Source: Tubulanus polymorphus (lineage: Eukaryota > Nemertea > Palaeonemertea > Tubulaniformes > Tubulanidae). From it: DNA of 64,000 bases. Shown here piece after piece: positions 3,439 to 42,209 of the stretch. The stretch spans positions 17,667,307 to 17,731,306 of the forward strand of contig NC_134031.1 of assembly GCF_964204645.1 (NCBI RefSeq). Direction: 5' to 3'. The position numbers and the translations under genes are program-made. The notes beneath the pieces are model-generated. The model did not search any database. It saw only the letters and a list, made by a program, of their open reading frames with translations, and had not been told where the DNA came from. Every line of letters begins with the position of its first letter. The first letter of the stretch is position 1.

Positions 3439-3896
<458 letters not shown>

Positions 3897-12345: not shown

Positions 12346-12650
12346 TTATATACACAATTCACGTCCGGAGAGGACTGGTTGTGATGGATGTATGCTTCGG
12401 ATGTGGCGCTGACAATTTTCGCTTTGCGAGAAACGCTTGTTACAATACGGACAACCGTACGGCTTGACCCCGGTGTGCGTCCGAATGTGTTTTATCATAT
12501 TCATCCGCGGGGCGTGACGCGGGCAATACGGGCACTTGATCACCAACACCGGATCGCCGAGTGATAAATCATCCGCCATACGACCTACAGGTGGCGCCAT
12601 AGTTGAATTTGCCAACGGCGGAGGCTTCTTTACTTTCGGCGGTTTCGTAA
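12346..12650 (-). CDS. gene A finger exon 32 (most distal)
   Basis: Acceptor TTTTGCAG at 12651. The leader is Pro/Lys-rich ([15 protein letters not shown]). Finger 1 is [20 protein letters not shown]; finger 2 has helix QSENCQR. Tail [12 protein letters not shown] then stop. It lies 27.3 kb from the constant donor. Finger 2 groups it with the next three exons upstream (CPYC/CPHC knuckle, ENCQRHIR helix). Confidence 0.85.
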
Positions 12651-15600
12651 CTGCAAAAGAATAACGTTGGGAAAAGATTTTAGAAGTTTTGAAAAAACTA
12701 CGTATTCAACAGGAGAAATCATAGCATAATTCTTTGGATTACATGATTCAAATATGACAAAACGGGGGCGGATCCAAGGGGAGGGTGCAGGGGTGCCTGC
12801 CCCCGCCTAAAAATGTCAAGTTGACCAGAAACTTTTACAGCAAAACGAAATAAAATACATCAAACTGATACCTAAACAAATTTGAATTAATAAGATTTTA
12901 ATTTTCTCTATATTTCCAAAAATGAGTTTATTTGTGCCCTTTTTCAATTATATGATATGTCCTATTTGCGTGTGCAAACCTTCCTGAATTAGACCCTAGA
13001 TCCGCGCCAGAAACTTAAGGAGGTAGGCTATAGTGTGTGCACAGTCACCAGACGGGCGAAGAACGAACTAGATTATTCCCAAAAAGAATAACATACGAAA
13101 CAAAGTTATTTCATTTTATAGGTAAAGGGATGAAGATTTATTTTTCATTATAAGATAACAGTAAAATACAAAGGCCGCATAAAGGAATTCTATCTTACAA
13201 CGATCGATAACGACAGTTCTTTTAGAAACGCATTTCAAGATTTACGTAAAGCGGATATAGAAGGTGGATATTGTTTGTTCATTTAACCCCTGTTGTCGGT
13301 GCACGTTGTCGTTCGGTCGATGATATCCTGTTGATCATCTCTACAATTTCTGGATCGACGACCAGCTCGCTGGCGGGTGGGATCATTTGGCGGGGGTGAT
13401 GGGAACGAATGTGACGTTGACAATTTTCGCTTCGAGAAAACTGCGTAAAACAGTGCGGGCATCCGTACGGTTTGAAGCCCGTGTGCGTCAATATATGCTT
13501 CTTGAAATTATACCCGGACAATACGATGTTTCTACGACAGAAAGGGCACACGCGAACTTTGGTCCTGTTGTCTTCAACGCCTAAAAATATCAAAATACAC
13601 AAATGAGTACAACTATATTGATCGCCCGCCGAAACCACGTGACAATGCATGACACGGAAAACAGGGGAATCTCGTCACAGACCGGAAGTTTAATCCGTGG
13701 AAGTAGAAGATTTGACCATGAACTCCATTTTTTAGAGTCCGTGATTTGACTAATTTCATAGCAGATGTTATGACCAGATTATTTGTTCCCCTGAATTTGC
13801 TGTTATTAAACGAGATTCCACTGTTCCGTATATAGGGCACGAATAACTTGAACCATACCGGGGACTACATGCAGGTCTGCAGTAGAACTGTCACGTCAGC
13901 TATGCTGAGCTCTCCTGACGGGGGCACACGGTGTCCTACGTGCACGGCCCGAATGTGACGTTGACAACTTTCAGGCCGCGAGAAAAATGTCTGGCAGTAC
14001 GGACACTTGTACGGTTTTGATCCGGTGTGGGTCAGTACATGACGTTTGAAGTTTGAAGCAGACGAACTGACGACTTTATGACAAAACGGACACGATTTTC
14101 TATAGGGATTTTCGCCGCCTGCAAAACCTACAAAACACGAAGTGAAAAACGATAACTCATGTATATACGGATAATATCTTCATCTTTATTCGATTATGAT
14201 TTGTCTAGAACGAAAGCATATATTTACACGTGAATTACGTATGTTTACAACGGTAAATGCAATACTTCAGATGATAAAGCCAACAGTTAAACAGATGCAG
14301 TTGACTCTAGTTTATAATTATGTTATCTGTAATAAAATTGATATCGAAAGTATGAAAGGATACATGATCTAAAAAAACAATTCATCTGCTATCATTAGAT
14401 AACGCTGAAACAACTTCAACAATATATGTATGCGTAAACTATTCTTTAAAAAAAAATTTTATTTCACTTTTTACACGAAATGATCAATAAGTATTTTTCG
14501 GTAGTGAAGTCCTAATCGTTTCTAAGTCGCTAAGTAAGTATCCATTCCGCACGAGGTCGTGATTAGAGATCGGAGGATGACAACTATTTCGGAGAGAACG
14601 ACATTATATTCATTCGGTTTGAAGACGGCACTGGTTGACCGGGGTGTATAGCGAGGATATGGCGTCGACAGTGTTCACCGCGCGAAAACAGCAATTGACA
14701 GTACGGACAACTGAACGGACGCGCCCCCGTGTGTGTTAACATGTGTCGCCGGAAATTCGAGGCGTACTTCGATATTTCTTTCGCGCAGTAAGGACATCGG
14801 TAGGTTGCCTTATCTGCAAAACACGAGAGAAATTTTAAAGAGATATAGTTTCGCATATTCCAGTTATTACAATCCTGTATTACGGGTAGACAAACGAAGC
14901 GGTTTCGAATGATTGTGCATTTACTGCCGGGTGCGGTTTGTGCCTGTGAAAGTGGTTCGGTCTTCAAATCAATGAAAGTGGTTCGGTCTTCAAATCAAAG
15001 CTTTACAATCGTCGAGTAAGCAGGGGAGCTATATCTCGTACATAGTATTGTATAATTATATTGTTGTAGCCTACAACCGTCATTTGAGTCGATGAAATCA
15101 TTAACATACAGAAATGTCGTGGATGTATATAGCACTGTTAAAAACTACATGTATCTTTTCCGTCGCATCTTTCTACATGTTTCTTCATGTTGCTATGGTC
15201 AGAGTACGTTTTATTACATTTCGGGCATTGGTACGGTTTAATTCCTAAATGCACCCGCAGATGGCGCCGATAATTGCCGACATAATTAGGCTGGAAAGTC
15301 TTCCCGCAGAAGTGACACGAGTAGACTTCCGTCGTTTTTGCCGACAACAGCCGGATCACTTCTGAAACGACAACAAACGGAAAGCGATTTAACAAATTTG
15401 CTAAGGAATTCACAAAACGAAAAACAAATATCTCCTTCATTTCGCTGCTGGGGAAATAGCGGTAACGCCGAATTCGATGAACTGCACTGAACGAGCTTCT
15501 TCAGATTTCAAACGAAAGATCAAAATAAAAGCGGAAACTCAAAAAGATAAGCTAAAAACTATGATTTATTTGTGACCATTGAATAAATACATACATACAT

Positions 15601-18600
15601 ACATACAAACATACATACAAACAACATTTGAAATAATCTCTTCGCAAAATCCGAGATCTGTTCAAAAAGAACCGAAATGCATCGTGCGCATATGTCGTCG
15701 CAAATTGCTTTTGTCAGAAAAACACTTCTGACAAACCGGGCACTGGAAGGGTCGTTCACCGCTATGAGAACGAATGTGAATAGTAAGAGAGTGCGTGGAT
15801 GGAAGATACCGGCCGCATTGGTGGCATTGATGGCGAAGTTCAGCGCTGCTGATTTCTGCAGATCTAGCCGATGTATCTCTGATACGGCGCTCTAGATAAG
15901 TACCAACTTGGCCTGAAAGGACACAAGCGCATAAGAAAACCTATATTAATGATGGTTAACTTATTGAAATAGGGTCGCTAATTCTTTAGTTAAAAGGGTT
16001 AATGGAGTGAAATAATGTCTAGATGGAGGAGGTAAGAATAAGCAGATGTCACAGACATCGACGGGTTCCCACAAACACACAGCCATCTTGTCAAATAAGT
16101 TCTTAACACGACACAATACATGAAGGGTCTACAATGAAATGTCTTAATTCACGAAATGTCACAGACATCGATGGGTTCCCACAAACGCACAGCCATCTTG
16201 TCAAATAAGTTCTTAACACGACACAATACATGAAGGGTCTACAATGAAATGTTTTAATTCACGAAATGTCACAGACATCGATGGGTTCCCACAAACGCAC
16301 AGCTATCTTGTCAAATAAGTTCTTAACACGACACAATACATGAAGGGTCTACAATGAAATGTCTTAATTCACGAATCGAGGCGCGAGTATTAAAATTTCA
16401 CGTGAAGTATAACGTGTCCTTGCAGATGGTGTTTACGAGAGAACGCTTTTCCGCAAATCGGGCAGACGAACGGTTTGATGCCGGTATGCAATTTCTCGTG
16501 CGTGCGAAGGTTTCCGGAACACGAGAAATGTTTATGGCAAATTTCGCAAACGTGAGCTTGACGAGCAGACGGCGACGAACCGCGAGGTCGTAACGGATTT
16601 TGCTCTACACGCCTGGTTAAATTCCACGCTAGCGAACTAATTGGGTACACGCCACCAATGTCTGAAAAATATCAACAGGAATGTCCTTTTAGTTTCATGG
16701 ATGGAAAAATTTTCGTTTTTTTGTTCAATTGCAAAACGTCGATATCGTAATCTTCTTCTATTTTGATCATGGTGCCATCACAAAAAAAACTTTCCTCCGT
16801 TTTTAAGTAAAAAATAAACTGAAACTGAAAGACTTAATTCTATATGATAACTCGACCATTTATTGAAAATATCTTCTTTTTACATAATATTTGCAGATAC
16901 ATTATTTCACAGATACCGGTACTCCATTTACAAACGATTAACAGTTCAAATCGATTAACATGAGTTTACAATAAGACTTTTTCTGGTCTCCTGAAGTTCG
17001 TAGCAAAGATGATCCACATTAGAATACTAATTTCTTTACTATCTATAGCCTTCTCTATACCTAAAACATTTTCTTTTGCTAAGAAATTCAAGTAAAAGTT
17101 AACATAGCATAAAAACTAACCTAAATAAAAAAAAAATAGAATAACACGCTGGTTACCACCAGTCGTGGCAGTGGCGGGCGTCAAACAGCCTTTTTCAAAT
17201 AAAATACGATCAGTAACAGTTTTCAGGAGATTTCACCCTTTACCTTTCAAATAAAGCAAAAATCACGGTTAAGTCCTCAAGTTAAAAAATTCTTATTTCA
17301 ATAGTAATCAGTTTTTCTCAGAATAAAACTGCAGCCTAACAAATATTTGTATATATACATTTCAAGAGAACAGTTGAGAGGCAACTCATGTTTTTTTGTA
17401 GAGGGGGGGGGGGAGTGAGGGGAGGGAGTCTTGAAAAAAGTTCAAGCTACAAAAAAGAAATGCGTATATTTTTTTCTCGTTACCCGTGTAATTTCTAGAA
17501 GCGTTGTATTTGTTTGTGTATATTGTGGAACGAGTTCATATGATTCTCCAAGTGGTGTTTACGCGAAAACGAACGGCCGCATTCGCCGCAGCCGAACGGT
17601 TTGATGCCGGCGTGCAGGTTCTCGTGCGCTTTCCGATTGAACAACGTCGAAAACGTTTTATCGCACATGCTGCACGCGTAACGCGGCTTTACGCCGGCCA
17701 CTCGCGTCGTCGATGGATTTGTACGGTCGGTCGGTCGCGGGTATTCAGAAAGTTGCCATTCGAGCCGGTATTCTGAAAGTACAAACGATGAAAGTGCCAT
17801 CACAACATCACTCACTCAAACACATATAATAACATATCGCGTGTATCTCTAGCGAGGATTTAAATCTTTTTCTCTGTTTTAAAAGAAAGAAAAAACAACA
17901 TCAGCCAAATGCGAACAACGCTAGCGGCGCCGCCTACTAACAAAAATTGGCTATGTCAATATGTACAAGAATAGAATGGTCGACCGATCTACGCGCTTTC
18001 CGTTCCCGGCATTACGTGAATAGTTGTTAGACTTCGTCACAGGAGATCAGTCCGAAAAATTGCTCGTGAAAGAAGCTGTCACGCGTAAAAGCAATAATCA
18101 GGTCGCGCTAAGATCCAATCCGATTGTCTGCGATTCAGACTTAAGAACGCTGATGTCACGTCGCGAGGTTGTTGTTGGATCTTTGCTGCACTCACGACGC
18201 TTAAAGTCATGTGATGCATACATCGCTGTTCATCGGCGGTTGTAAGTACACTCACGTCACGTAAGATCTGATCGTCTTAAGATATAGAACATGTCCAAAC
18301 AGCTTAAGTCTGGTTAAGTAAGATCTTATGCGTGCCGTGTTAGGCATGTAAACGTTCGGAATCTAGGAAAAAACCATAGAAAATCTTTCTCAAGGTCGAC
18401 TGACGGACAATTTATGCACGAGTCTTTGGTGACGATACAAACTACTGGACTGAACGAAGAACCTTGAACAGAGGGCGCAGTAATACGGTTTAACACCGGT
18501 ATGGGTGTTCTCATGTTTACGACAGTCAGCAGCCGAGCCGGACAATTTCCCGCATACGTAACAACGATGCCCCGTTTCATCGTTGCTGTTCCAAAGGGAC

Positions 18601-21600
18601 CTCAACTCGGCGCCGCCTGAAAAAAGCCGGAAAAAATTTCATCAGTTTTTCAATCGGTGGCAAGACAAATAACGCTAACAGGGATTCGGGGTTTTTTCAT
18701 GCGGGGCAAGACGGGGTCAGTTTCAAGGTCGGTCGGTCGGACGCGAGTCTGGTCAGCTAGTTCAGTCCTATTGTTTAGTAGTCGTCAGGGCGTGAACATC
18801 GACGTCAGGATGTTTGTTACGGACGTGACGATACAAGTTACTGCTCTGCGAGAATCTCATCAGGCAGAAATCGCAACTGAACGGCCGCGCGCCTAGATGA
18901 GTGAGTTCGTGTTTGAGACAGTGATCCTTGCGTCGCGACGGTCGATCGCAAAACCGACAGTGAAATGTGTTATCTGGCTGTCGAAACAGAGTTTTGCCAT
19001 TCAGAATTGTTCGAAGCGCGACCCCTGAAAATAGGCAAAAACAAACTTCGATCAATTCACTGAAAAGCTTAGTCATTGTTCGTACAATCAATTAATGTAA
19101 ATTTTTTCCCCCTAATTTTTGGTGGGAAGGAGAGGGGGCAACCGCTGTAAAGTTCTTAAAGTAACAATTGAAGTATTATCATTAATATCACGCAACACAT
19201 TCAACCGAACAATCGGGAATTCGATGGCAGGATTTTCGCCCCAAAGATGACGTTACAATAACACGCATACGAGTACAACAATGAGATTAATCGGACCACG
19301 CGACAAAACGCGCGATAATCCGGCGAACGAATAAATCCGATTAACGCCGATAAACGTCGCTCATTTCCAGTCGAGACGATAAACCGAACGATCGGTTAAT
19401 TTCAACGATTATGCGATAGGCGCATGTGTCTCTTTAAACTGCTGTATCTGATATACCATCGTTTGCACAATACGCAGGTATACGTGTGAGTCGGAGCCGT
19501 GTGCACTTGCTCGTGTTGAAGACAGTTCGTTCGGCGTGTAGACGTCGCGCCGCAGTTGTAACGACAGTGATACAGGCCGTCCGCGCCGATTACCAACGGG
19601 AATCGCGGCCCTTCTGAAAATAACCATTAGAAAATTGATCAGTCCGAGCGAATCCATATATATATTTATATACATATTTAGATGCTATATATTCATATTC
19701 AGATCAAGTGATGAAAATTTTCGCACTCGAAAATGATTATTCATCCAGTCCATAACAAATAACATTCAGTCTTCAAACCATCGAACCATATTTACAGCAT
19801 ATACGAACGACTCGTATAGATCATTCTCGAAGTTGAAAATTAGACAATGAGGAGGTTCCGTCGCCTGGTAGGAACCACTCCAGTACATATAACCCATACC
19901 TTTGGCTCTATATCGGTAGAAACCCTTTTCCTCGCGGGCATCGTTTCAGTTTATGAATAAGTTTCATGTGGCGGTAAAAATTTCCCGAATGGTTGAACGA
20001 TCGGTCGCACATTTTACAAGTGAATGGTTTGAATCCGGAATTTATATACATATTTAGGGGGTACAACTGAGACTATGTTCGCGGTCCGATGAAATAGCGC
20101 CGTCAATAGCCGTATTTCGTGTTCATAATCGTATGAAGCTTGAACACCTGGCCGTTCGTGTCCCACTGTTTATTATACCCGCGTAGACACAACCGGCAAA
20201 CATACGGCACGACCTTCCTACTGACGATTCGACGAGACTTGCAGTAGTTCGGTTTACCGCAAGAACTGCACGTTTCCTCCGTGTGCGGCGTCTTATCATC
20301 CGACCGAGCGACGACCGATCTGCCTGAAAAACGTGAAAACACCGAGAATGAGATGAAGCGATAAGAGATATACGGATGAATGTTGCGACACCACCACCGC
20401 GTATCGAACATCATCGCGCTACTGAAAACATTTCGGTAAGTTTCCTCGAGAGTCTTTTAAAGAGTCCTCCGGAAAGTCATCCGATAAAAACAACTATGGT
20501 TATACGTGTTACCGGATGAACTTGAAGAATAGTTCCGTCATCGAGTAGGTGGCGTTCTGGTTTTCGCGGAAACAGCGCATTGTTTCGGACAACACCTGAG
20601 TAGTGTCATAATTAAACCGATTTATTCCCGTCGCTGCACGTTTGTAGATGCTGTGTCAGACCGATCTATTGCCAATTGGATGGTGAGAAATCAACAAAGT
20701 ACAACCGTGGATCCGATATTCGATCGGTTACTCGAGGAAATACAGCCGGTCGCTGATATCGAGAGCTATATAAGGACTATGTTTAGTTGCGGGTGACGAT
20801 TTGTGACGGTTTTATCGAAAACCTCAAACGAAAATCATACGATAAACCTCCTCTGAATCGACATTATCAATGGCGACCGAATGTACAGAACGTAGGTGGC
20901 GCCGGTAACTGGAGCTTTGCGTGAAAGTGTTGCCGCAGATTTTGCACTTGTACGGACGATCTCCGACGTGTATGCGTTCGTGGATTTTACGATACGAATT
21001 GCTTTGACACAGTTGACCGCAGAACCGACACTGTTTCGTCCGGGGTTCGCTACCTGAAAAATACGTGAGCAAATCAAAGATATATCATCATCCCACTATC
21101 TTAAGAGAATATTTAAATCTGATTGATCGAATTGATTGATCACCGGTTCTCCAGCAGTAACAGTCACGAAAAAATCCTCAGCAGTCTCGAGTGTTCTCCT
21201 GAAAGCATCCGATTAATGAGGATTATGATTATGATTTGTTCCGCGACATAATTCTTCCTCAGGTCCTCGGCCGGCCACCGATCTGATTTAACTCCTTCGA
21301 ATTGACAATCAACGATGACCGAATGTACGGAACATAGGTGGCGCCTGTAACTATAACTTCGAGTGAACGTGTTTCCGCGGGTTTTACACGTGAACTATTC
21401 AACTAGGGGTTCACAACTGGAAGAGGCGAAAAACGAGTCAGTTCTCATCTTACTTTTCCTGCTAGAAAGTATCAGTGGAAAATATCAGTCAGGCATTCGA
21501 AAGCACATCTTTAAAAAGCAACCCATTCACTTTATAGCAATCAAAATGGTAAAACCAAATATCATCTGAACTAAGATTCTGTCATAAGCAACGGCGTATC

Positions 21601-33600: not shown

Positions 33601-36600
33601 AATGAAGTGTCTCGTATAGATCGTCAACTGGTTCGACGAACAGACATAAATGTTCCACGCGGCTAGTTGATGAGCCCCGCAAAAATGTACCATATGTCAT
33701 AAACATGGGCAACAAACTGATCCGCATGTAGTGTAAAATTGAGAATAACAAATTCTGCCACCATATATCTGCGCCTAAGAATAGATCTGGTTCGGTCAGA
33801 TACGATTATGCGAATCTCAGTTCGTAAGCCAGCAGAATAAACAACTATCCAAGCCAGGCAGGCATCTTTAAGCCTAGCGCACATCGACACTGCGATTGGA
33901 GACAACTAGTTGCAAGGCAGTTTTCGGCGCATGAGAGGAACTGGCTGGATACGATCAGTTCCTTGGATGTGTCGATGTGAGCGAGCTTACGATTGGTAAG
34001 CGTCGATCTATCTCCAGTTCCAGCCAGTTGCCCATGTTCTACTTTTGAGCAACTGGTTGTACTCAATCGCAGTCATATCCGTCGATGTGCGCGCTCTGGA
34101 TCTCGACGATCGACACGCGCCATGCAGTTGCTGCAACTGACCGGTTGTAACTAGATTTCGACGTGCGCGGGGTAATCGTTCGGTAGCAACTAGTTGTCTC
34201 CAATCGCAGTGTCGATGTGCGCTAGGCTTTAGTTCCTTCGTTGTACTATGTTTGTCTAAAACAACCCGAGCAAAAATTTTAGTTTTATCGTTCGAAACGT
34301 TATTAAGCACCGCTTTCTTCTTAAAGTGTCGCTAGCTGGTTCCGACGCGCAAATCCGCTACATCGTCATTATTTACGCGAAGTTCGCCTCTTCGCCGGTT
34401 TATCGTCGAAATGAAGCTTACGATGCCGCGACATCGTACCCGACTGTCCGAAAGACATTTGACAAATGTCGCACCGATACGGCCGCACGCCGAGATGCGA
34501 GTTCATGTGATCGTGCAAATGCGAACTGTAAAGAAACCGACGGCCGCAAATTTCGCAGCCGAATTTCCGTTGCATCGAGTATATCGGATTTGGACCGATA
34601 ATACGCCGCGAATCCTCCGCACTGGTCACCGAACGTCCATTTCCTGTAACAAGTCAAACAACCTTATTATACGTGATACCACAAAGACGTTTTCAGTTCA
34701 TCTCACTTATTGAAAACAGATCTCGGTTTAAGTTTTGGCGTCGATGTATTGAGCATGCTACACTTATTAATAGACCGAAAAAAAAAATCAAAATTTCCAC
34801 CAATCGCAAGAAGTTCATTTTCAAATCATGATCGGTCTTTAAAATGTCTCCTACGATGACGCGACATCGTACCGGACTGTCCGAACCACATTTCGCAGAT
34901 ATCGCATTGATACGGCCGCACGCCCAAATGCGAATTCATGTGATCGCGCAAATTCGAACTGTAACGAAATCGGTGGCCGCAAATTTCGCAGCCGAATTTA
35001 CGTTCCATCGAATATATCGGATTAGGAGCGATATCGCGACGTGAATCTTCAGCGGCGCTGCTCGACGGTCGTCCAATTCCTGTAACAAGCCAAAGTGAAC
35101 AACCTTATTATATTCGAAAGACGAAATTCGAAAAATGTCACACCTTTCAAGCTCCCTGCACTAGTTTTATTAGAGTTTTAAGGTTGTTTTTTTTAAATCA
35201 ATTATATCTCATGTTTGAAACAGTATATTTTTGTATAGAGTTCAATGTCGTCGCGATGTGTGTCAAAATGTCTCCTCTTAAATATTGCACTTATACACCT
35301 AGATACAAAACCAAATAATTACCGTATCTAGTTTTGTCACGAAATTGGCAGCCGCAAATTTCACAGCCAGCCTTCTGTTTGCAATGAATAAATGGGATTA
35401 AGGCGGATGTCTTATCATCCAATCACTGCAATAAGGCTAAGGATACAACTTCCCCTAGTTTATGGTATATTCATGGGGCAGATGGTAAAAATGTGTAATC
35501 GTGTCACGGACAAGACCTCCTTATAGCGAACGATATACATAAATTGATCGTAATCGATTAAATCAACAAAGATCAGTTAAAAAACGCTAACATTTTATTG
35601 AATTTTATAGAAAAGATCGTTATTCCTCGACGCATTCTTCCAAGTCGGATTTTGCCTCCAGTTTGTAAATTGTTTGAAATTTCATCCACGATATCTTTTT
35701 ACTGAAAATTACATCGCAACGTCGACATCAATTAAATTCAAACTATTCAATCAAAGTAGCACCTAGAAGGCACCGTTCAAATAAACTAGATGCGTCCTTT
35801 ATATCCGTGTTGGTATAAATGACAGGTTCAACTGTTATTTCTTTCTCACATTCTCCCAAAATGTAATCGCCTTAAGAGTTTGCGAAATGTTTGAACCGGT
35901 ATCCTCGATATTTCTTTTTTGTTTAAAGTAACACCGCGACATCGATAATAACTATACAATCAGCGCAGCACGCAGAGCGTTTAATAAAACTATACAATCA
36001 GCGCAGCACGCAGAGCGTTTAAAAAACTAGGCCGTGTTCCTTGCGTCGGTGCTGGTATAAATGACTGGTTTGACTAAACGTTCGACTGCACACCGTACAC
36101 GCGTACGGCCGCAAGCCGAGATGCATCGATAGATGATTACGCAATCCCGTACGACGATGAAAGTGCTTGCCGCAGATCTGACAGCCGTGCGGTCTCTTCT
36201 TAGCCAAAACAGCAGCAGCAGCAGCCGTAGCAGGGTTCACGAATATGTACCCTGCAAGGAAACGAGACTCTTGATGAGTACATTACAGTTGATTGCCGTT
36301 TGTACCGGTTGTTGGGATTTTATTTTCAGGAAGAGGGACATTGACGAATGTGGCGCCATCTATATGCTCAAGTGTTCGATCAAGTTACATCCGAAAGAGA
36401 ACGAACTAAAACTGATAGGAATGTTTTTTTCTTTCGGTTTCTCCGCAGCCAAACGAGTTACTTTAGGAAATGCAATTCCAGTCGATGGTCCTTCCGTTTG
36501 TGCCGATAAAGCGTGCTCGTTTGCGAATACGATTTGCCGCACAATTCGCAACGATGCAAACGCAAGCCTAAATGCATCGACAGGTGATTCTGCAAACCGG

Positions 36601-39600
36601 CGCGACGATGAAACCTCTGGCCGCAGATCGTGCACGCGTGTCGACGCCGCGGGTCTTCGTGCTCGGCGAGCAGCGCCGGCCGGCCGCGCTTTTTACCGAA
36701 CGGCTGGAAATTGTCGAACACGTCGAGAATATCTTGACCTAGAAATAGTCAAAGTTGAATACATCTTATCCACCGATAACTCGAAATACAATATTCTTAA
36801 TTAGAAAACATTCCTCAAGTGGATAGTTTAGTGTCTTACTATGACTCGGCACTTAAAACATTCGCTACACGTATATATCTATTCCGTCAACAAAATTAAC
36901 TCCGCGTCATTTGTCAAATTAGTTAAATCGTGAATTTTCGGAGTCGTATGTTATAAAAGTAACGTTTAGAAAATCAGTTTCACCTTCTGGTAAAACGGAT
37001 AAAATCTTTATAACTATTAACTCAAAATACGGGCTTTCAGGTCGACATTCTCTAGACTCCATAAATTATGCAGATGCCATTTCCTAAAGTTTACCTAAAC
37101 GCGTAAATTACAGCAACGACCAGAATATGAGAGACATTTTCTAATCTTTTTATTTATAGAATCTCAGATGACAAAAAATGAAACAAAATACAACGAAACG
37201 ACCGACACCTAAAAAACCAACGGACGCCGCGATCTTCACGAGTTACGCCGATGGGCAGCGGCGCGGACGCTTCATCCGTCGAAAAACTCTCCGCATACAA
37301 AATAAAACCAAAGACGAAAAATCTGCCAAACGGTCCCTCAATGTTTATCGATGAACGGTGCGCCGATGTCGATAAAGCGTGCCCGGCTGACTGAACCGTT
37401 TCGCGCATATATCGCACTGGTAGTTCTTCAAGCCGATGTGGATCAACAGGTGGCGCTTCAGGTCGCTGCTCTGGCGGAATTTCTTACAGCAAATGCTGCA
37501 CTGGTGTTGCTTCGAGTCGAAGTGCGTCGCCATGTGCCGCGTCGCGTTCGTTTTCCGTACCGTCTTGTGGCAAATCGAGCAGACGATGTACGTCACCTGC
37601 GTGTAGAATCGCAGCAGTTTGCCTCCTGCAACGATCAGAAGAAAAATTTCGATGATTACAAGATACATCCGATCATCCGATTCTCTTGACCACCGAAAAA
37701 AATCATCATCATCATCGTCATCATCATCATCATTCTTATCACCATCACACACGGCAAACACCAACACCAACTCCTCGGATACAAAAATCAACCCTAGATA
37801 CGTAAAACAACCACAACCGGGAGGGATCGAGGGAAAGTAGAAAATCCCGAAGAAAGTCGTTTACTAAAACCGTGACCCGATCCGTACGTGCAGGTTGAAA
37901 CCCTAGTTATACGCGAAAACGCGACTGACTTCTTATCACCCGAGAATGACGTTCTTACGGATACTTAACGATCGCCATGGCAACAACAACTAAGTCGAAG
38001 CTAGTGTATAATACGCCGCGAGTTTTTTCCGTTCGTTAATCCTTTCGCCGCTCTAATAATAATCTGATGCTGTATTCCAGATTCTCACGCGGCTTTCACT
38101 AATATCCGTACGGTATCGCGAACTGTCACCGCTAAAAATTCACTTATTCGGTTTGTTTTTTTTTTTTTAATCTACGAATGAGACGCGCGTGGGATACGAT
38201 TGTTTACTATTCGACGCACGCACTGAAAATTCAAATTCATTTCCAGCAGGAACAAAAACAAGAAAATCAAAACTACTGCATAATAATAAATATGTGTTCC
38301 TCGTATCGGGGATAAAAATTGTACGAGGCGCGATTCTATAAACGATGTTGAGAATCGAACCAGGGAATTCAAATCCATAATTCGACCCACAGGCTCAAGA
38401 CGTTTTCTCCTCCAAATCGATGGTCGATTTCTAATGTAATATTCCAAATTTTTTCAACGGCGTTTCATCGAACCCGATAACACTAAAACGACCCGCGTCC
38501 GCGGCCTGCGTCCGGTTTGTTGCAATTTTTATCCGCCGATACGATCGAGGTTCAGATGATAATGACGAAAACGCATGATTTTTCACCATGACAAATCATC
38601 ACTATTAAATCAGCAGAGAACGATATATAACGATTTGTCGATCGAACGATCAGCTATCAAATACTCACCTTCCCGCGCGCACACGTAAAACAGAGAGATC
38701 GAAACATTTCCCATTAAACTGAGATTAAGACTTCCGAGATAGGATAGTGTGAGCGCCATCAAACATACAGCGTTCTTACTCGCGATAACTAATTGTAAAC
38801 TGGTGATTATTATAAAAATATTTGTCTAATGCTTAAGTTTTTCCTCCAGTTTATTCATCACACAGTAGGAGTAATCACGTATGTAAGTTAATATCTTGAT
38901 AGCTGATGGTTCGCTTAAAAAAGGGTCTACGACAGCAATATTTGCGCTTTATCGAAAATACCAGCTCGGTGAAATCGCATTAATGAAAATACCACGTCAA
39001 TTAAGTCTTAGTTCCCGAGATGCGAATCAATTTTGGATTTCGATTTTCTTTTAGATACCGAACAGATATTGCTTTCTGATAGACCGCTATACGGCTCTTG
39101 TACGCTTATCCAGAATCAGACAAAATGATATTTAATAGAATTACTTTCTTTCGATCATTCGAGCAAAATATGCAATATCAGAAGATTCGCGCTTGTTCCG
39201 ACCATAAGATTGATTCTCATGGAATGGATGCATTTTCAATTATCTGATAGGCGTACACCAGACCATATCGTACAGATTCCAGAACAACCTTAAGATCAGA
39301 TTTCAATCCCACTGAGTGTCATGTCATTTACAATTTCAGCTCCATGGAATTCCATCAATGGTCTCAGCTGTGTGAAACATTCTTACGGTAACAAACTTCT
39401 GCGCAATGTTTAAAGATTAGACTTTCCACTGCACTCATCGAACAAACTCATTTTAAGTGGATATGGCCCTAGTATTTTGAAACTCCAAACATGGTTCCCA
39501 CAGTAGTATGAATTCAAAATTCCCAAGTTTTTCCCAAGTATTTCATGGGTGATTTTTCAATTTTCCCAAATGGAAATGAACACATCGTCATTCAACAGTC

Positions 39601-42209
39601 TATATTTTACTGGTGACTGGTTGATAAAGGTGATTTTGAAGTGAAACTGCTGAAGAAAGTTGCCCTTGGCAAATGCAATGTATGAAATGTAATGAATTTC
39701 CCAAATATTTCCCTGATTTGAGGAAAATTTTTCAAATTCCCAATTATTTCCAAACCGGGAATTATTATTTCAAAATTCCCAAATTTTTCCCAATTTCCCT
39801 GTTCTGTGGGGACCATGTCCAAATCCAATGGATACGCATTTTAAAGACCCCCTCATAGATTCCATTGCGTAAAACTGTCACTATTTCATACTGGACAAAA
39901 ATAAGAAAATCTGCTTGTTCTGAAATCTGTATTTAATAATGAAAGTAAAGGATGAAAATTCGAAACCTACCGGCTTGATTAGGTGGTGGTTGAATACCGG
40001 ACGACGTGGAAGGCATAGGATTATTGGCGTGAGGTTGTCTCGGACGTCTGGCGCTGGTTTGTTTCGGTCGTTTCGGTGCGGTGTATTGTCTCGGCGTACG
40101 CTGCGTCATCGCTGGATTATACAGAGCGGCATTCTGCATCATCTGCTCCGAATATTGCTGCTGCTGTTGCTGCATCTGATGTTGTTGCTGCTGTTGCAGC
40201 AGCTGCCCCGTTTCGTCGTACATGTAATTGTTGTAATCGGCGCCCTCGTCTTCCTCGTCGTCGTCGCTGAGACTGATCACCTCCGGTTTCACGTGAACGC
40301 TGCCGACCGACGCCGCTAGCATCTGTTGATTATCGTACTGCGACAGGTAAAGTCCGGAATTCGGGTCGACGTCCGACATCGCGTAGCCGCCGCTGCTGTG
40401 ACTACCCGAATTCGACGGCACGCGACCCTGGAAGCTCAGCGATGACACGACGTTCTCCGCGTCAATGAGATTTTGATTTTGTTGAGACGTAATCGTTGCC
40501 GACGCTCGTCGACGTTTACGCTTCGAATGCAATTGTTGGTGAGGGAATGACTGACGAGGTGTTTTCGGCACCGCAGACGTTAATTGTTCGTCGTACGCGT
40601 TTGATAAATCACCACCAGGTGGCGCCTGGTTGTCGTGTTCGCCATCGCCGTGTTCGGCCACGGGCATTGTCAGATCGTTTTCATTATTTTCGCCGACGTT
40701 CGGTTCGTCCTGTTCGAACGCGTTATCGTCGTGTTCGGATAAATCGGCACCGGCAGCGAACTCCGACTCCTGCAGAGCTTTAGTATCGCTGTCGCTGAAC
40801 GCGGAGACGCTCGTCTCCATTTCCTGGTGGTAGAGTTCGTGTGTCGGGTCGCTGAGACGACGTTTTAACAGCGCCCGTTCGTGATTATTAATCTCCGGTT
40901 CGGATTTCACATTCCGTCGTAACGAACGCCCTGAATCAGAATGAAACATGAGTTAACACTTTCAAGAATATTTCTGGGATTAAAATATAAAAACCTATTA
41001 ATTAATACATTTCTATGAATCACACATTGATGATGAAATGGCAATGGCATTTCCAAATTTTCTGAGTTTTGGCAAAAATTTGTCATATTCCCTGAATTTT
41101 CCCCCACTTTTTATGTTGGGGCACAAAATTTGAAAAATGTCTCTCTTTACGAACGCACAAACTACAACTGATTCGTATCTCATGAAACACATATTGATAA
41201 AGCCTGGCCAATAGCATCATATGAATCCTCCAAGTTTGTCGATACTTTTTTTTGGACAAAATATGTCAAAGTATTCATTTTTCGACCTTTCCCCAATATA
41301 TTCTAGATTTGTCTGATCTGCGTTGTTTCCCTAATTTTGTTCATGCTTTACCACACAAAATTCCCTGAGGTTTTAATCTCGCAAATCCCCAAATATTTTT
41401 TTGACATTTTATTTTCTATTTCTATATAAGCAGGTTATACATTCAGAGTGAAGCGTCAAATTCATCGGCTCTTTTACTTTTTCAACATTAATGTTTTTCT
41501 ATCCATGACCTGTTTCAATAAAAAACTTTACGTGAAATGAAACGTTCTTACCGGGTGAATGTCTGGCACGTCGATCCTGCCATTCTAACCACGTCGGTTC
41601 ATCTACCTCGACGACTATATCGGCTATCACATCCAGGCGACTTTTCAAACATTCTTTCAAGTCAGCCTCATTCACTTGGAATGGTATGTCTGTAAGAAAT
41701 TAAATTTTAGAGATGCAAAAAATCTAAATCGTAGATTAAAACTAATCATCAGGGCCCGGTTTCACAAAAAAGTTTAAGCTTAAATCGGTTAAGTTTGAAT
41801 TGTTGTCCTCATTGAAAACATGAAGTAACCAATGGCAATTACACCAAATATTTGAGTTTAACTTTTTTTGTGAAACTGGGCCCATGTCTATTTGCAACAA
41901 AAACGAGCATTCATTGTTTTTTCATTATCAGGTAGATTTAATTTTAGTATTTTCACAAGTTGATTAAAATGATAGTGAAACTGAAGCGGAATACTCTGCT
42001 TCATAAAGAATAGAATTCGTAAACTGGCTTGTATTCTAGGGAGATCATCAACAACCAGGAAGTAAAATGTAACGAGCCAGTTTACAAGCCTCTGTTTGTG
42101 ATCTTTCACTTTAAAATCCAAAAAATGATGCTCGTTTTAAAACATTTTTTGACTAATAAAAGACAATTAACGAGTCAAATGGTTAAGAAAACTTACCAAG
42201 AAGCATCAT
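12346..42209 (-). CDS. gene A: transcription-factor locus with 32 alternative 3' zinc-finger exons
   Basis: A constant 5' part (exons 42209-42197, 41689-41552, 40930-39971; 370 codons plus one base) ends with donor G|GTAGGT in phase 1. Downstream lie 32 exons, each with a YAG acceptor, two bases completing the split codon, a pair of C2H2 fingers (three in the first) and a stop codon. Each can be joined to the constant part but not read through to another, so the fingers are mutually exclusive 3' ends. Expected products are nuclear DNA-binding proteins of about 440-490 residues with one shared regulatory half and a variable DNA-recognition half. In architecture this matches the Drosophila lola and mod(mdg4) loci, but no BTB domain is seen in the shared part. 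Splicing is inferred from sequence only. Confidence 0.85.
12764..13008. mobile_element. short transposon with GGGGCGGATCCAAGG / CCCTAGATCCGCGCC ends
   Basis: Inverted termini GGGGGCGGATCCAAGG and CCCTAGATCCGCGCC bracket a non-coding core that starts with the G/C-rich GTGCAGGGGTGCCTGCCCCC. A related end appears near 59668-59695. It lies between two finger exons. Confidence 0.5.
13279..13580 (-). CDS. gene A finger exon 31
   Basis: Acceptor TATTTTTAG; the split codon gives Gly, then [10 protein letters not shown] and finger 1 ([14 protein letters not shown]). Finger 2 helix is RSENCQR. The tail after the fingers is unusually long, about 35 residues ([19 protein letters not shown]...), and may echo the VDSxEVY tail of other exons. 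Confidence 0.85.
13865..14118 (-). CDS. gene A finger exon 30
   Basis: The exon contains no ATG before its fingers, so start-based ORF searches miss it. Acceptor TTTTGCAG, then G-GENPYRKS and finger 1 ([19 protein letters not shown]). Finger 2 is [22 protein letters not shown], helix RPESCQR. Tail [15 protein letters not shown] and TAG at 13867-13865. Phase 1 entry matches the constant donor. Confidence 0.85.
14584..14813 (-). CDS. gene A finger exon 29
   Basis: Acceptor GTTTTGCAG; split codon GAT, then KATYR and finger 1 ([22 protein letters not shown]). Finger 2 is [22 protein letters not shown]. The leader before the first Cys is only seven residues. It belongs to the same family as exons 30-32. 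Confidence 0.85.
15138..15361 (-). CDS. gene A finger exon 28 (C2H2 plus C2HC)
   Basis: Acceptor TCGTTTCAG, leader [15 protein letters not shown]. Finger 1 [19 protein letters not shown] is two residues longer than standard between Cys and His. Finger 2 [21 protein letters not shown] ends in Cys, a C2HC zinc ligand set. It shows no close match to its neighbours. Confidence 0.85.
15662..15912 (-). CDS. gene A finger exon 27
   Basis: No ATG precedes the fingers. Acceptor TCCTTTCAG at 15913, then [20 protein letters not shown] and finger 1 ([18 protein letters not shown]). A canonical SGERPF linker leads to finger 2 ([22 protein letters not shown]), helix DKSNLRR. Tail FGSF, stop at 15664-15662. 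Confidence 0.85.
16046..16375. repeat. 110-bp tandem repeat, three copies
   Basis: Three almost identical direct copies begin at 16046, 16156 and 16266 (ATGTCACAGACATCGA/TGGGT...). The few differences are single bases. The array ends about 15 bp before the stop codon of finger exon 26, so it occupies that exon's likely 3' UTR and the next intron. Confidence 0.95.
16390..16661 (-). CDS. gene A finger exon 26
   Basis: Acceptor ATTTTTCAG; split codon GAC, leader [17 protein letters not shown]. Finger 1 [21 protein letters not shown]; linker TGIKPF; finger 2 [21 protein letters not shown], helix RKHHLQG. Very short tail VKF. Sister of exon 25, sharing the FSRKHHL helix. Confidence 0.88.
16662..17494. 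other. intron, no gene seen
   Basis: AT-rich spacer between finger exons 26 and 25, with a short G-run near 17402-17430. No finger remnant was noticed. Confidence 0.4.
17495..17771 (-). CDS. gene A finger exon 25
   Basis: Acceptor TACTTTCAG; leader [19 protein letters not shown]. Finger 1 [21 protein letters not shown]; linker AGIKPF; finger 2 [22 protein letters not shown]. Tail NIHKQIQRF. It is the nearest relative of exon 26, consistent with tandem duplication. Confidence 0.88.
18020..18345. repeat. dispersed repeat, copy 1
   Basis: Shares GTCGCGCTAAGATCC, CTTAAGAAC, ATGTGATGCATACATCGC and TAAGTGCACTCA-like blocks, in the same order, with 22358-22690. Non-coding; copies sit in two different introns of the exon array. 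Confidence 0.6.
18390..18616 (-). CDS. gene A finger exon 24
   Basis: Acceptor CTTTTTTCAG; leader [18 protein letters not shown]. Finger 1 [21 protein letters not shown]; finger 2 [22 protein letters not shown], helix QSSSLYR. Tail KLSVSRP. It groups with exons 23 and 22 by the SSLYRH/SNLYRH helix. Confidence 0.85.
18768..19024 (-). CDS. gene A finger exon 23
   Basis: Acceptor CTATTTTCAG; leader [21 protein letters not shown]. Finger 1 [21 protein letters not shown]; linker LGARPF; finger 2 [22 protein letters not shown]. Tail [13 protein letters not shown]. Confidence 0.88.
19402..19613 (-). CDS. gene A finger exon 22
   Basis: Acceptor GGTTATTTTCAG; leader [16 protein letters not shown]. 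Finger 1 has an unusual C-x3-C knuckle ([22 protein letters not shown]) and an atypical linker TAPTHTYT. Finger 2 [22 protein letters not shown] ends two residues before the stop. Confidence 0.82.
19700..20040 (-). pseudogene. truncated duplicate of finger exon 14 and its 3' flank
   Basis: Nearly identical to 26953-27290 over about 340 bp, including the GFLPI tail and the second finger (helix HSGNFYR, all four zinc ligands). It breaks off just before finger 1, so finger 1, the leader and the splice acceptor are missing. The right edge runs into unrelated sequence at about 20041. It is a recent partial exon copy landed 7 kb away, in the same orientation. Confidence 0.85.
20103..20323 (-). CDS. 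gene A finger exon 21, fingers degenerate but frame and splice site intact
   Basis: Acceptor GTTTTTCAG and phase 1 entry are normal ([18 protein letters not shown]). The Cys pairs remain (CSSC and CRLC), but the His ligands of finger 1 are gone: where relatives read RIVHERIH, this exon reads RIVSRKVV. Finger 2 ([21 protein letters not shown]) also lacks a normal His pair. The frame stays open to a stop at 20105-20103. It could be an early pseudo-exon, or an isoform that no longer binds DNA. Confidence 0.6.
20824..21053 (-). CDS. gene A finger exon 20
   Basis: Acceptor TATTTTTCAG; leader GSEPRTKQ. Finger 1 [21 protein letters not shown]; linker VGDRPY; finger 2 [22 protein letters not shown], helix QSSSYRR. 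Tail [18 protein letters not shown] carries the VDSxEVY signature shared with exons 19 and 18 and with genes B and C. Confidence 0.9.
21290..21395 (-). pseudogene. decayed finger exon fragment
   Basis: On the minus strand the segment reads [24 protein letters not shown], clearly related to exon 20 ([24 protein letters not shown]). The second Cys ligand is lost, and neither finger 1 nor an acceptor is recognisable. The VDSEEVY tail has become VDCQFEGV. Confidence 0.75.
21879..22240 (-). CDS. gene A finger exon 19
   Basis: Acceptor AATATTTTCAG; a long leader ([20 protein letters not shown]...). Finger 1 [21 protein letters not shown]; linker LGIKPY; finger 2 [22 protein letters not shown]. Tail [19 protein letters not shown] followed by a further basic extension to the stop. 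Confidence 0.9.
22358..22690. repeat. dispersed repeat, copy 2
   Basis: Same ordered blocks as 18020-18345 (for example CATGTGATGCATACATCGC). No coding potential. It lies between finger exons 19 and 18. Confidence 0.6.
22785..23062. repeat. 30-bp minisatellite, about nine copies
   Basis: Unit CATATACATAGACCC(G/A)GTCGCAGCTGCACT repeats about 9.3 times with few changes. Being a multiple of three and lacking stops, it reads on the minus strand as a ten-residue repeat ([10 protein letters not shown]), but it has no finger or acceptor of its own. It lies just 3' of the stop codon of exon 18, in that exon's probable 3' UTR. Confidence 0.95.
23084..23373 (-). CDS. gene A finger exon 18
   Basis: Acceptor CATATTTTCAG; leader [18 protein letters not shown] then an Ala-rich run. 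Finger 1 [21 protein letters not shown]; linker SGDKPF; finger 2 [22 protein letters not shown]. Tail [17 protein letters not shown] is the clearest minus-strand copy of the tail found in genes B and C. Confidence 0.92.
23545..23828 (-). CDS. gene A finger exon 17
   Basis: Acceptor TTTTTTTCAG; leader [19 protein letters not shown]. Finger 1 [21 protein letters not shown]; linker SGYKPY; finger 2 [22 protein letters not shown]. Tail [18 protein letters not shown]. First of the GFLPI-tail family (exons 13-17). Confidence 0.92.
23829..24674. other. intron with a MITE and a 33-bp direct duplication
   Basis: No finger exon seen. A direct duplication of a TTTTTTTTATTCATAATGAA-type unit lies at about 23997-24060. 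A MITE follows at 24183-24373. Confidence 0.5.
24183..24373. mobile_element. MITE with ATACCTTGTTTCTCATT ends
   Basis: Terminal inverted repeats ATACCTTGTTTCTCATT and AATGAGAAACAAGGTAT are exact. Part of the interior (ATAGAAATGAACCGATT) recurs inverted near 45540-45570, together with ATACCTTGTTTCT at about 45500, showing a second copy beside gene B. Confidence 0.75.
24675..24907 (-). CDS. gene A finger exon 16
   Basis: No upstream ATG, so it is easily missed. Acceptor CATATTTTCAG; leader [13 protein letters not shown]. Finger 1 [21 protein letters not shown]; linker SGYKPF; finger 2 [22 protein letters not shown], helix RSGNFNR. Tail [14 protein letters not shown], stop at 24677-24675. Confidence 0.9.
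24908..25575. other. intron, short local repeats
   Basis: Between exons 16 and 15. GAGGACTCCACGGTCTATCC-like units repeat near 25005-25085. No finger remnant was noticed. Confidence 0.4.
25576..25838 (-). CDS. gene A finger exon 15
   Basis: Acceptor CATATTTTCAG; leader [21 protein letters not shown]. Finger 1 [21 protein letters not shown]; linker TGIKPF; finger 2 [22 protein letters not shown]. Tail [14 protein letters not shown]. Close to exon 16, with which it shares the acceptor region and the SNW motif. Confidence 0.92.
26067..26298 (-). pseudogene. decayed finger exon of the GFLPI family
   Basis: The acceptor-like CTAG and leader [15 protein letters not shown] resemble exons 13 and 14 ([16 protein letters not shown]). 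An in-frame stop follows within about 21 codons. Finger 2 remnants [15 protein letters not shown] and the region of the GFLPI tail are recognisable downstream in a broken frame. Confidence 0.75.
26299..26952. other. intron, nothing recognised
   Basis: AT-rich spacer. I see no finger remnant or terminal inverted repeats. Confidence 0.35.
27157..27410 (-). CDS. gene A finger exon 14
   Basis: Acceptor GTTTTTTCAG; leader [20 protein letters not shown]. Finger 1 [21 protein letters not shown]; linker SGFKPF; finger 2 [22 protein letters not shown]. Tail [14 protein letters not shown]. This exon and its 3' flank were the source (or sister) of the truncated copy at 19700-20040. Confidence 0.92.
27922..28169 (-). 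CDS. gene A finger exon 13
   Basis: Acceptor TGTTTTTTAG; leader [18 protein letters not shown]. Finger 1 [21 protein letters not shown]; linker SGYKPF; finger 2 [22 protein letters not shown]. Tail [14 protein letters not shown]. The leader matches the exon 17 leader (LSDYYR). Confidence 0.92.
28170..29436. other. long intron, no gene seen
   Basis: The largest gap inside the finger array (1.27 kb). AT-rich. No finger remnant or clear transposon ends were recognised. Confidence 0.4.
29437..29705 (-). CDS. gene A finger exon 12
   Basis: Acceptor GATTTTTTCAG; leader [21 protein letters not shown]. Finger 1 [21 protein letters not shown]; linker LGLRPY; finger 2 [22 protein letters not shown]. 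Tail [14 protein letters not shown] holds a short repeat ([12 protein letters not shown]). Confidence 0.9.
30186..30445 (-). CDS. gene A finger exon 11
   Basis: Acceptor TTTGTTGTAG; leader [18 protein letters not shown] then the [13 protein letters not shown] signature. Finger 1 [21 protein letters not shown]; linker LGVRPY; finger 2 [21 protein letters not shown] is C2HC. First of the [10 protein letters not shown] family (exons 4-11); its leader and finger 1 nearly equal those of exon 7. Confidence 0.92.
30785..31044 (-). CDS. gene A finger exon 10
   Basis: Acceptor CTTGTTGCAG; leader [20 protein letters not shown]. Finger 1 [21 protein letters not shown]; linker LGVRPH; finger 2 [21 protein letters not shown]. 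Tail FRNQSDQ. Helix QSSAMxR is shared with exons 7 and 6. Confidence 0.92.
31454..31701 (-). CDS. gene A finger exon 9
   Basis: Acceptor CTCGTTACAG; leader [19 protein letters not shown]. Finger 1 [21 protein letters not shown]; linker LGLRPY; finger 2 [21 protein letters not shown]. Tail FKDK. Paired with exon 8 by the [13 protein letters not shown] end. Confidence 0.92.
31893..32149 (-). CDS. gene A finger exon 8
   Basis: Acceptor ACTTGTTACAG; leader [19 protein letters not shown]. Finger 1 [21 protein letters not shown]; linker LGLRPY; finger 2 [21 protein letters not shown]. Tail FKDKSNQ. Only about 190 bp separate its acceptor from... the next upstream material; it sits immediately 5' of exon 9's acceptor-side spacer on the genomic map and is that exon's closest paralogue. 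Confidence 0.9.
32636..32907 (-). CDS. gene A finger exon 7
   Basis: Acceptor GTTGTTGTAG; leader [20 protein letters not shown]. Finger 1 [21 protein letters not shown] is identical to that of exon 11. Finger 2 [21 protein letters not shown] instead resembles exons 6 and 10. The mixture suggests exchange between exons. Tail FKSVPFQSP. Confidence 0.92.
33125..33387 (-). CDS. gene A finger exon 6
   Basis: Acceptor GCTTGTTACAG; leader [19 protein letters not shown]. Finger 1 [21 protein letters not shown]; linker LGLRPH; finger 2 [21 protein letters not shown]. Tail FKFALVQ. Confidence 0.92.
33871..34228. mobile_element. MITE with perfect 43-bp inverted ends and TTA target duplication
   Basis: Left arm 33871-33913 and right arm 34186-34228 are exact inverses (left begins AGCCTAGCGCACATCGACAC). 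The direct TTA on each side (33868-33870, 34229-34231) fits a 3-bp TWA duplication, typical of PIF/Harbinger elements. The interior carries further CAACTGGTTG-like palindromic pieces and no coding frame. The perfect arms suggest recent activity. Confidence 0.9.
34369..34643 (-). CDS. gene A finger exon 5
   Basis: Acceptor CTTGTTACAG; leader [19 protein letters not shown]. Finger 1 [21 protein letters not shown]; linker LGVRPY; finger 2 [21 protein letters not shown]. Basic tail [13 protein letters not shown]. Recognition helix QSGTMSR is identical to exon 4. Confidence 0.92.
34826..35079 (-). CDS. gene A finger exon 4
   Basis: Acceptor GCTTGTTACAG; leader [20 protein letters not shown]. Finger 1 [21 protein letters not shown]; linker LGVRPY; finger 2 [21 protein letters not shown]. 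Tail FKDRS. Nearest paralogue of exon 5. Confidence 0.92.
35260..35420 (-). pseudogene. decayed finger exon of the [10 protein letters not shown] family
   Basis: Minus strand reads NPIYSLQ and then, after a frameshift, [18 protein letters not shown], clearly related to exons 4-9 ([18 protein letters not shown]). Finger 1 lacks its His pair and finger 2 is unrecognisable. Confidence 0.75.
35785..35850 (-). pseudogene. possible remnant of an exon 3-like finger exon
   Basis: TCCTTTATATCCGTGTTGGTATAAATGACAGGTT matches, with changes, the 3' end of exon 3's second finger and stop region. No longer an open frame. Weak similarity only. Confidence 0.4.
35949..36021. repeat. 36-bp direct duplication at the 3' end of finger exon 3
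   Basis: ACTATACAATCAGCGCAGCA..CGCAGAGCGTTTAA occurs twice head to tail. The second copy touches the stop codon of exon 3. Confidence 0.9.
36019..36251 (-). CDS. gene A finger exon 3
   Basis: Acceptor TTTCCTTGCAG; leader [20 protein letters not shown] with an Ala run. Finger 1 [21 protein letters not shown]; linker LGLRPY; finger 2 [22 protein letters not shown]. Tail GLVF. Sister of exon 2 by the HRRxGLxNHLSMH finger. Confidence 0.92.
36458..36738 (-). CDS. gene A finger exon 2 (with AT-hook-like leader)
   Basis: Acceptor TATTTCTAG; leader [26 protein letters not shown]-type sequence holds KKRGRPA, the core of an AT-hook, just before the fingers. Finger 1 [21 protein letters not shown]; finger 2 [22 protein letters not shown]. 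An AT-hook next to fingers could add minor-groove contacts (inference). Confidence 0.92.
37345..37625 (-). CDS. gene A finger exon 1 (three fingers, closest to the constant part)
   Basis: Acceptor GATCGTTGCAG; leader [15 protein letters not shown]. Three fingers follow: [41 protein letters not shown] and [22 protein letters not shown]. It is the only exon with three, and ends one residue after the last His. The donor of exon 3 of the constant part is 2.3 kb upstream. Confidence 0.92.
37626..39970. other. intron between constant exon 3 and the first finger exon
   Basis: No gene seen. Starts with a CAT/TCA-rich tract (about 37700-37740). Between about 39520 and 39800 are repeated TTCCCAAATTTTTCCC-type phrases, a dispersed low-complexity family also found at about 41040-41400 and 50130-50340. 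Confidence 0.5.
39971..40930 (-). CDS. gene A constant exon 3: disordered regulatory region
   Basis: 960 nt, phase 1 at both ends; residues about 51-370 of the predicted protein. In order: VKSE at 58-61 (psi-K-x-E), an acidic Glu/Asp-rich region to about 165, a basic cluster SKRKRRRAS near 186-194 (likely nuclear localisation signal), VKPE at 264-267 immediately followed by [12 protein letters not shown] (268-279), a textbook SUMO-interacting motif, a Gln-rich tract at about 293-309, and a Pro/Arg/Lys-rich end ([15 protein letters not shown]). Acceptor TCTGATTCAG; donor G|GTAGGT. The whole exon looks intrinsically disordered. The SUMO reading is inference from motif form, strengthened by conservation in gene B. 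Confidence 0.9.
41552..41689 (-). CDS. gene A constant exon 2: conserved N-terminal domain
   Basis: 138 nt, phase 1 to phase 1. Encodes the segment beginning [20 protein letters not shown] and ending [18 protein letters not shown] do not recognise a named domain and it is not a BTB fold signature. Its conservation in genes B and C (IPFQV..DL.ECL..RLDVI.DIV..VDEP.WLEWQ.RR) shows it is under constraint, probably for protein contacts. It differs from gene B's copy at only two synonymous bases. Confidence 0.92.
41752..41883. mobile_element. MITE with GGGCCCGGTTTCACAAAAA ends, in intron 1 of gene A
   Basis: Ends GGGCCCGGTTTCACAAAAAA and TTTTTTTGTGAAACTGGGCCC are inverted. Intron 1 is 507 bp here but only 108 bp in gene B. 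The two introns are otherwise similar next to exon 2, so this insertion explains part of the difference. Confidence 0.8.
42197..42209 (-). CDS. gene A coding exon 1 (Met-Met-Leu-Leu)
   Basis: ATGATGCTTCTTG followed by donor GTAAGT; the last G joins AC of exon 2 to give Asp, so the protein begins MMLLDIPFQV. Genes B (ATGCTTTTAG) and C (ATGTTACTCA) have the same tiny first coding exon in the same phase, which is strong support for this start. Confidence 0.85.

Follow-up and report, generated by a model that had tools for sequence, protein, structure and literature searches.

To our knowledge, the described genes that join one constant 5′ part (head) to any of many alternative 3′ ends (tails) are lola and mod(mdg4), both insect BTB genes. 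The lola gene gives rise to 20 isoforms, 17 of which have C2H2 fingers; as presented in the sources, an N-terminal common region is followed by many alternative 3′ exons, most with C2H2 or C2HC fingers of their own (PMC1947980, PMC11426971). For mod(mdg4), at least 31 isoforms are described, with a common 5′ exon and variable 3′ parts (PMC4667647). TTK-type BTB domains, such as that of lola, are described as not found outside arthropods (PMC11426971).

Here, we analyzed a window of 64,000 nucleotides from Tubulanus polymorphus (the whole stretch of DNA under study, C7:17667307–17731306) together with the genome it belongs to (267.8 Mb searched, in 77 contigs). The window very probably holds a single minus-strand gene, in which a constant head of three exons ending at the donor at 39971 would be joined to any of 31 alternative 3′ terminal exons. 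The lola-type trait, alternative C2H2 3′ exons behind a constant part, is found here both in anatomy and in splice phase, and the gene likewise resembles mod(mdg4) in having common 5′ sequence and variable 3′ parts. It differs from lola in that the lola head is a BTB domain, whereas here the head contains a 47-residue two-helix domain and no BTB; moreover, there are 31 tails, and several loci of the genome show the plan. In mod(mdg4), the head is a BTB domain and most tails are of the FLYWCH type, some of them being encoded on the opposite strand and trans-spliced, whereas here the tails scanned are of the zinc-finger type (9/9, no FLYWCH) and all tails found lie on the strand of the head. Clustered protocadherins carry variable exons with their own promoters on the 5′ side and constant exons on the 3′ side; they resemble the window gene in combining an array of variable exons with a constant part, but the order is reversed here.

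The zinc-finger tail array

A six-frame scan of the window for C2H2-type fingers detected two groups on the plus strand and, in the interval 12388–37581, 32 on the minus strand. The preliminary description had counted 32 zinc-finger exons in this region. The array itself stands, as do the separate acceptor, fingers and stop of each exon, but the count has to be corrected to 31 intact terminal exons and four decayed relics. One of the 32 groups is a truncated copy, which rules out 32 intact exons; the earlier figure presumably takes in a relic. Each of the 31 intact tails has two fingers (one has three), its own stop and its own polypyrimidine–AG acceptor.

Numbered from the head, and with boundaries assigned by acceptor scoring (supplemented by the finger scan for exons 1, 16, 26 and 29), the minus-strand array begins with exons 1 (37345–37625, the one with three fingers), 2 (36458–36738) and 3 (36019–36251), which are followed by a relic at 35294–35395. 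Next come exons 4 (34826–35079), 5 (34369–34643), 6 (33125–33387), 7 (32636–32907), 8 (31893–32149), 9 (31454–31701), 10 (30785–31044), 11 (30186–30445), 12 (29437–29705), 13 (27922–28169), 14 (27157–27410), 15 (25576–25838), 16 (24675–24907), 17 (23545–23828), 18 (23084–23373) and 19 (21879–22240). A finger relic at 21308–21394 separates these from exon 20 (20824–21053), beyond which lie the two remaining relics. The array then continues with exons 21 (19402–19613), 22 (18768–19024), 23 (18390–18616), 24 (17495–17772), 25 (16390–16661), 26 (15662–15912), 27 (15138–15361), 28 (14584–14813), 29 (13865–14127), 30 (13279–13580) and 31 (12346–12650). No finger pair was found to the left of 12346 in the window, nor in the 10 kb flanking the window on either side, and the array therefore appears complete.

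The relic at 35294–35395 derives from a zinc-finger exon and that at 21308–21394 from a finger. The one at 20103–20323 (minus strand) has kept an open frame and a phase-1 acceptor and has lost its zinc ligands. The fourth, at 19911–20045 on the same strand, is a truncated copy of exon 14, whose start is at 27410: it consists of the second finger only, 93% identical over 45 residues, and no acceptor was found for it. A Pfam scan of nine of the 31 tails and one relic returned zinc-finger models for all nine tails and no match for the relic (20103–20323); FLYWCH was not detected in any of these 10 sequences at E up to 0.01. Reading of the fingers bore out the earlier mention of C2HC fingers beside C2H2 ones, since the second finger is C2HC in exons 11 and 27 (starting at 30445 and 15361). 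Minisatellites occur between the tail exons, at 22785–23062 (30-base unit, 9.3 copies) and at 16046–16375 (110-base unit, 3 copies).

Splice phase was assessed with a generic acceptor matrix, by scoring for each minus-strand group every AG from the upstream in-frame stop to the first finger. The best in-frame acceptor was in phase 1 in 31 of the 32 groups, the sole miss being the truncated relic 19911–20045; when frame was disregarded, the best acceptor within 220 nt was in phase 1 in 29 of 32. Acceptor scores averaged 5.40 for the real groups versus 1.85 for random minus-strand points (highest mean of a random set, 3.14; points without any AG were redrawn), and the random points gave phase 1 in one third of cases, with a maximum of 17 out of 32 among 300 sets. 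A binomial probability of 2e-11 for the phase agreement overstates its significance, because the cassettes have been duplicated from one another; as the tails are tandem duplicates, the agreement is partly inherited and does not amount to 31 independent events. Read in this way, the earlier statement that all exons enter in phase 1, matching the donor at 39971, holds for 31 of 31 intact tails, and the donor is indeed in phase 1. An in-frame ATG before finger 1 is missing from 11 of the 32 groups, including, as had been proposed, the exons at 13865, 15662 and 24675 (exons 29, 26 and 16). Between acceptor and finger 1, 21 of the 31 tails have no in-frame ATG and 10 have one.

Between the stop and the next intact acceptor, 21 of the 31 tails carry a canonical poly(A) signal (AATAAA or ATTAAA). 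Shuffling leads one to expect 15.7, and 6 of 500 shuffles attained the real count; the segment behind the most distal tail was limited to 1,500 bases. Counts of upstream 7-mers revealed no clear intronic motif common to the 31 tails. The commonest, GAAAAAA, precedes eight of the 31 exons; the maximum was seven in 200 shuffles, but random segments of the window reached nine exons in 200 sets, and we therefore do not regard it as a clear element.

Substitution rates were compared within two families of duplicated tails. In family A, dN/dS ranges from 0.14 to 0.37 (8 tails, 19 of 28 pairs, with nine pairs saturated), and in family B from 0.17 to 0.42 (5 tails, 10 of 10 pairs). The 13 tails tested, out of 31, are thus under purifying selection. 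Helix positions −1, 2, 3 and 6 are the DNA-contact positions of zinc fingers. In the last two fingers of each tail, the residues predicted at these positions form 31 different eight-residue sets in 31 tails. In family A, the contact positions are more variable than the remaining finger (0.60 vs 0.40); in family B, widened to eight tails, they are barely more variable (0.54 vs 0.51).

The constant 5′ part and its two-helix domain

The head consists of three constant exons on the minus strand, 42209–39971, beyond which the tails spread over 25 kb. The coding part of exon 1 (42197–42209) reads ATG ATG CTT CTT G, followed by a phase-1 donor GTAAG, and so contributes MMLL plus one base. Exon 2 (41552–41689), delineated by genome protein search, alignment and the spliced frame, encodes the N-terminal two-helix domain (DIPFQV...RRARHSP) and is in phase 1 at both ends. 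Exon 3 (39971–40930), assigned by sequence reading and the spliced frame, encodes a linker, probably long and disordered, with a polyQ tract, a KRKRRR basic run and an acidic stretch; its last base is 39971, where the phase-1 donor GTAGGT follows. Exon lengths of 13, 138 and 960 bases add up to an unbroken frame that stops one base into a codon. Since exons 2 and 3 are each in phase 1 at both ends, the frame would survive skipping of exon 3. The predicted introns from the donor at 39971 to the tails measure 2.3–27.3 kb.

The absence of a recognizable BTB domain from the constant part, as reported earlier, was confirmed. BTB (PF00651) has at least 57 matches in the genome, none of those listed lying in the window, and the constant part matched no Pfam family, the best hit being an unrelated model at E 0.091. 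A BTB in the constant part is thereby ruled out. As BTB was searched for and not found, the gene is not a member of the BTB–zinc-finger family.

The basic KRKRRR-like run is common to the exon 3 copies of the window (39971–40930, 44406–45332 and 48906–49571). Motifs of the V-K-x-E and V-I-x-L-S types lie beside the acidic stretches of these copies, not each of them in all three; we take them to resemble SUMO attachment and SUMO-binding sites, respectively. Together with the basic run, such SUMO-like motifs would suit a chromatin regulator.

The head domain spans 47 residues with invariant Cys, Asp, Trp, Trp and Arg in an alignment of 17 rows, made from the 18 matches (two of them identical) that a genome protein search with exon 2 returned at E up to 0.001. 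With a composite query, 42 domain matches were obtained at E up to 0.1, of which 38 remained at a threshold of 0.001; another domain query gave 44 matches, mostly at the same places as the 42. The domain had no match in Pfam. A domain profile searched against PDB sequences gave nothing significant (only E 0.28 and 0.45), and Foldseek with the domain model found nothing in PDB at E up to 10. The AlphaFold2 model, built from three window sequences, has two helices, with pLDDT 81.8 and pTM 0.36, scores that are too low for a firm fold. Among the papers listed in our literature searches, no title or opening of an abstract gave an account of the two-helix domain or of a non-BTB case.

Domain copies and finger arrays across the genome

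According to the genome protein search, the window contains only three copies of the domain, and none lies between the tails. The other two belong to paralogues on the plus strand, each with a single tail. The first (43632–46024) stands head to head with the minus-strand gene. Its predicted exon 1 (43632–43641; ATG CTT TTA G with a phase-1 donor) is one of several ATG-plus-donor candidates; exon 2 (43750–43887), found by genome protein search, encodes a protein sequence identical to that of the minus-strand exon 2, and is followed by exon 3 (44406–45332, from sequence reading) and a lone zinc-finger terminal exon (45744–46024, phase 1 by acceptor scoring). The second (48265–53780) comprises a domain exon at 48265–48396, an exon 3 at 48906–49571 and a phase-1 zinc-finger terminal exon at 53332–53780, identified in the same ways. 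A degenerate GTAGGTTGAATCTC-type tandem array, at 49572–50100, begins at the exon 3 donor of this paralogue, and the donor-like GTAGGT consequently recurs after that donor.

In the divergent pair, exon 2 and adjoining intron form the arms of an inverted repeat (41545–41760 and 43679–43894; 216 bases, 94% identical by DNA alignment), and the two exon 2 copies differ by three synonymous changes in 138 bases. No DNA alignment of the exon 3 copies of this pair was obtained at E up to 0.001. Second exons that are so alike, beside third exons that have diverged, would fit gene conversion between genes that are otherwise old, or a recent copying of the head exon between them.

The association of the domain with downstream fingers extends beyond the window. 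Within 12 kb downstream of the domain, C2H2 fingers occur on the same strand for at least 30 of the 42 matches and on the opposite strand for none, among the matches listed; these finger lists are lower bounds, the best 150 candidates having been scored per query. Upstream, the corresponding figures among the matches listed are 10 (same strand) and 6 (opposite strand) of 42, mostly inside arrays or divergent pairs. A downstream finger is missing among the matches listed for 12 of the 42; two of the loci counted as fingerless, C2:0.85 Mb and C7:1.94 Mb, do carry fingers. The joint is also recurrent. Of the 18 domain copies read, 17 gave a donor, some of them weak, and all 17 donors are in phase 1; in the 18th, the motif applied recognized no donor.

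A related region lies at C8:11.40–11.65 Mb, where about 250 kb hold at least 67 groups of zinc-finger exons together with 15 domain exons. The genes diverge from a centre near 11.494 Mb, those on its left pointing leftward and those on its right rightward. The region is possibly a larger version of the arrangement in the window. Judged by position, three single domain exons are followed by 20, 13 and 11 finger groups and each of nine others by one to four; the remaining three domain exons have no finger group before the next domain. In 16 kb read at the end of this array, the best acceptor is in phase 1 in 11 of 12 finger exons. Outside this array, among the matches listed for the other 27 domain matches, fingers lie downstream on the same strand in 16, downstream on the opposite strand in none, upstream on the same strand in one and upstream on the opposite strand in four.

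At C7:16.17 Mb, two domain genes again stand head to head. The plus-strand gene has eight finger exons, all in phase 1 (8/8), and of the two finger groups on the minus strand, one is in phase 1 and the other is not. Phase-1 tails were also found at C8:15.97 Mb (1/2), C2:0.85 Mb (2/2) and C7:1.94 Mb (1/1, a weak site). In all, best acceptors in a phase other than 1 numbered four: the truncated relic of the window, one at C7:16.165 Mb, one at C8:15.975 Mb and one of the 12 in the C8 array. Five heads have arrays behind them by position, with 31 tails in the window and about 20, 13, 11 and 8 exon groups elsewhere.

A few features stand apart from these loci. Four C2H2 matches on four contigs (C2:16369173, C4:6647406, C6:11069193 and C8:2553817) have equal score, identity and open-frame length (365 aa), as if they were carried by a dispersed repeat. 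In the window, an open frame on the minus strand (60311–62233) begins much as a signal peptide would and contains a run of aspartates and long repeats of the KPAVVPVVPAT type, so that its product resembles a secreted repetitive protein. A nearly pure AT dinucleotide run (193 copies) occupies 3475–3860.

Alternative explanations and a proposed mechanism

The preliminary description had a constant 5′ part feeding alternative 3′ exons. Apart from the number of exons, that proposal is strongly favoured by our results, namely the shared phase 1, the 21 of 31 tails without an ATG, the absence of any other domain copy between the tails, selection in 13 tails and the repetition of the plan elsewhere. 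Our results add to that description the head-to-head paralogue on the plus strand and the large family defined by the N-terminal domain. Nevertheless, other explanations have to be weighed. In one of them, every tail or tail group is an independent small gene for a zinc-finger protein, equipped with a promoter and N-terminal exons that belong to it alone. In keeping with this, 10 of 31 tails have an in-frame ATG downstream of the acceptor. On the other hand, finger 1 is not preceded by any in-frame ATG in 11 of the 32 groups, the N-terminal domain copies in the window are confined to the three described above, and the best acceptor is in phase 1 in every intact tail. We consider this explanation highly improbable. 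Somewhat easier to entertain, though still unlikely, is the idea that few tails are used, the majority being decaying duplicates that descend from a single ancestral 3′ exon. The four relics inside the array show both birth and death, and 10 of 31 tails have no canonical poly(A) signal ahead of the next acceptor. However, the open frame, the acceptor and the zinc ligands are all preserved in 31 tails, and comparison of duplicates among the 13 tails tested shows more synonymous change than replacement.

A different question is whether the tails have promoters of their own and are trans-spliced to the constant part, as in mod(mdg4), which would yield the same proteins by another RNA mechanism. 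Tails lacking a start codon after the acceptor (21/31) fit trans acceptor transcripts as well as cis tails, and the head-to-head genes on opposite strands share an equal phase-1 joint and a protein-identical exon 2. Trans-splicing is, moreover, described for both lola and mod(mdg4) (PMC4667647, PMC1947980). Yet all 31 tails lie downstream of the donor, on its strand and 2.3–27.3 kb away, so that plain cis-splicing suffices, and each of the two plus-strand paralogues has a tail exon of its own. Overall, trans-splicing from separate tail promoters seems to us a minor possibility.

With a single cis-spliced gene as the preferred explanation, the following sequence of events can be proposed. Splicing would proceed mainly in cis, from a single promoter. 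The primary transcript would most likely run through the array, one tail acceptor would be used and cleavage would take place after that tail, the junctions from the donor at 39971 to the tail acceptors being presumed to be really made. Each tail would supply its own acceptor, two (once three) fingers, its own predicted contact residues and its own stop. The resulting proteins would have partner-binding and chromatin functions in common and recognize different DNA targets, with the N-terminal domain mediating protein contacts, perhaps dimerization; they would presumably regulate transcription.

The best reading of the whole system is that it is genome-wide and lola-like, with a different head. 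It is this head, and no other feature, that suggests an origin that may be independent. A bolder scheme can be drawn up, which we regard as quite doubtful: a BTB-free, independently evolved combinatorial transcription-factor system, in which the two-helix domain, in some 40 copies, and a hundred or so tails, if not more, at many loci and on both strands, would share one phase-1 joint. Besides being combined within a gene, heads and tails could then be swapped by trans-splicing across strands and from one gene to its neighbour, while gene conversion would keep the heads alike and the tails would diversify.

If the single-gene reading is true, one gene could yield dozens of distinct regulators of gene activity. 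An example without BTB that has 31 tails and recurs at several loci would suggest that the constant-head, alternative-tail design arose more than once and that it is able to expand into a whole gene family. The locus would also offer a natural test of how splicing picks one of dozens of terminal exons, and it bears on the role of the two-helix domain and on why heads stay alike while tails diversify.
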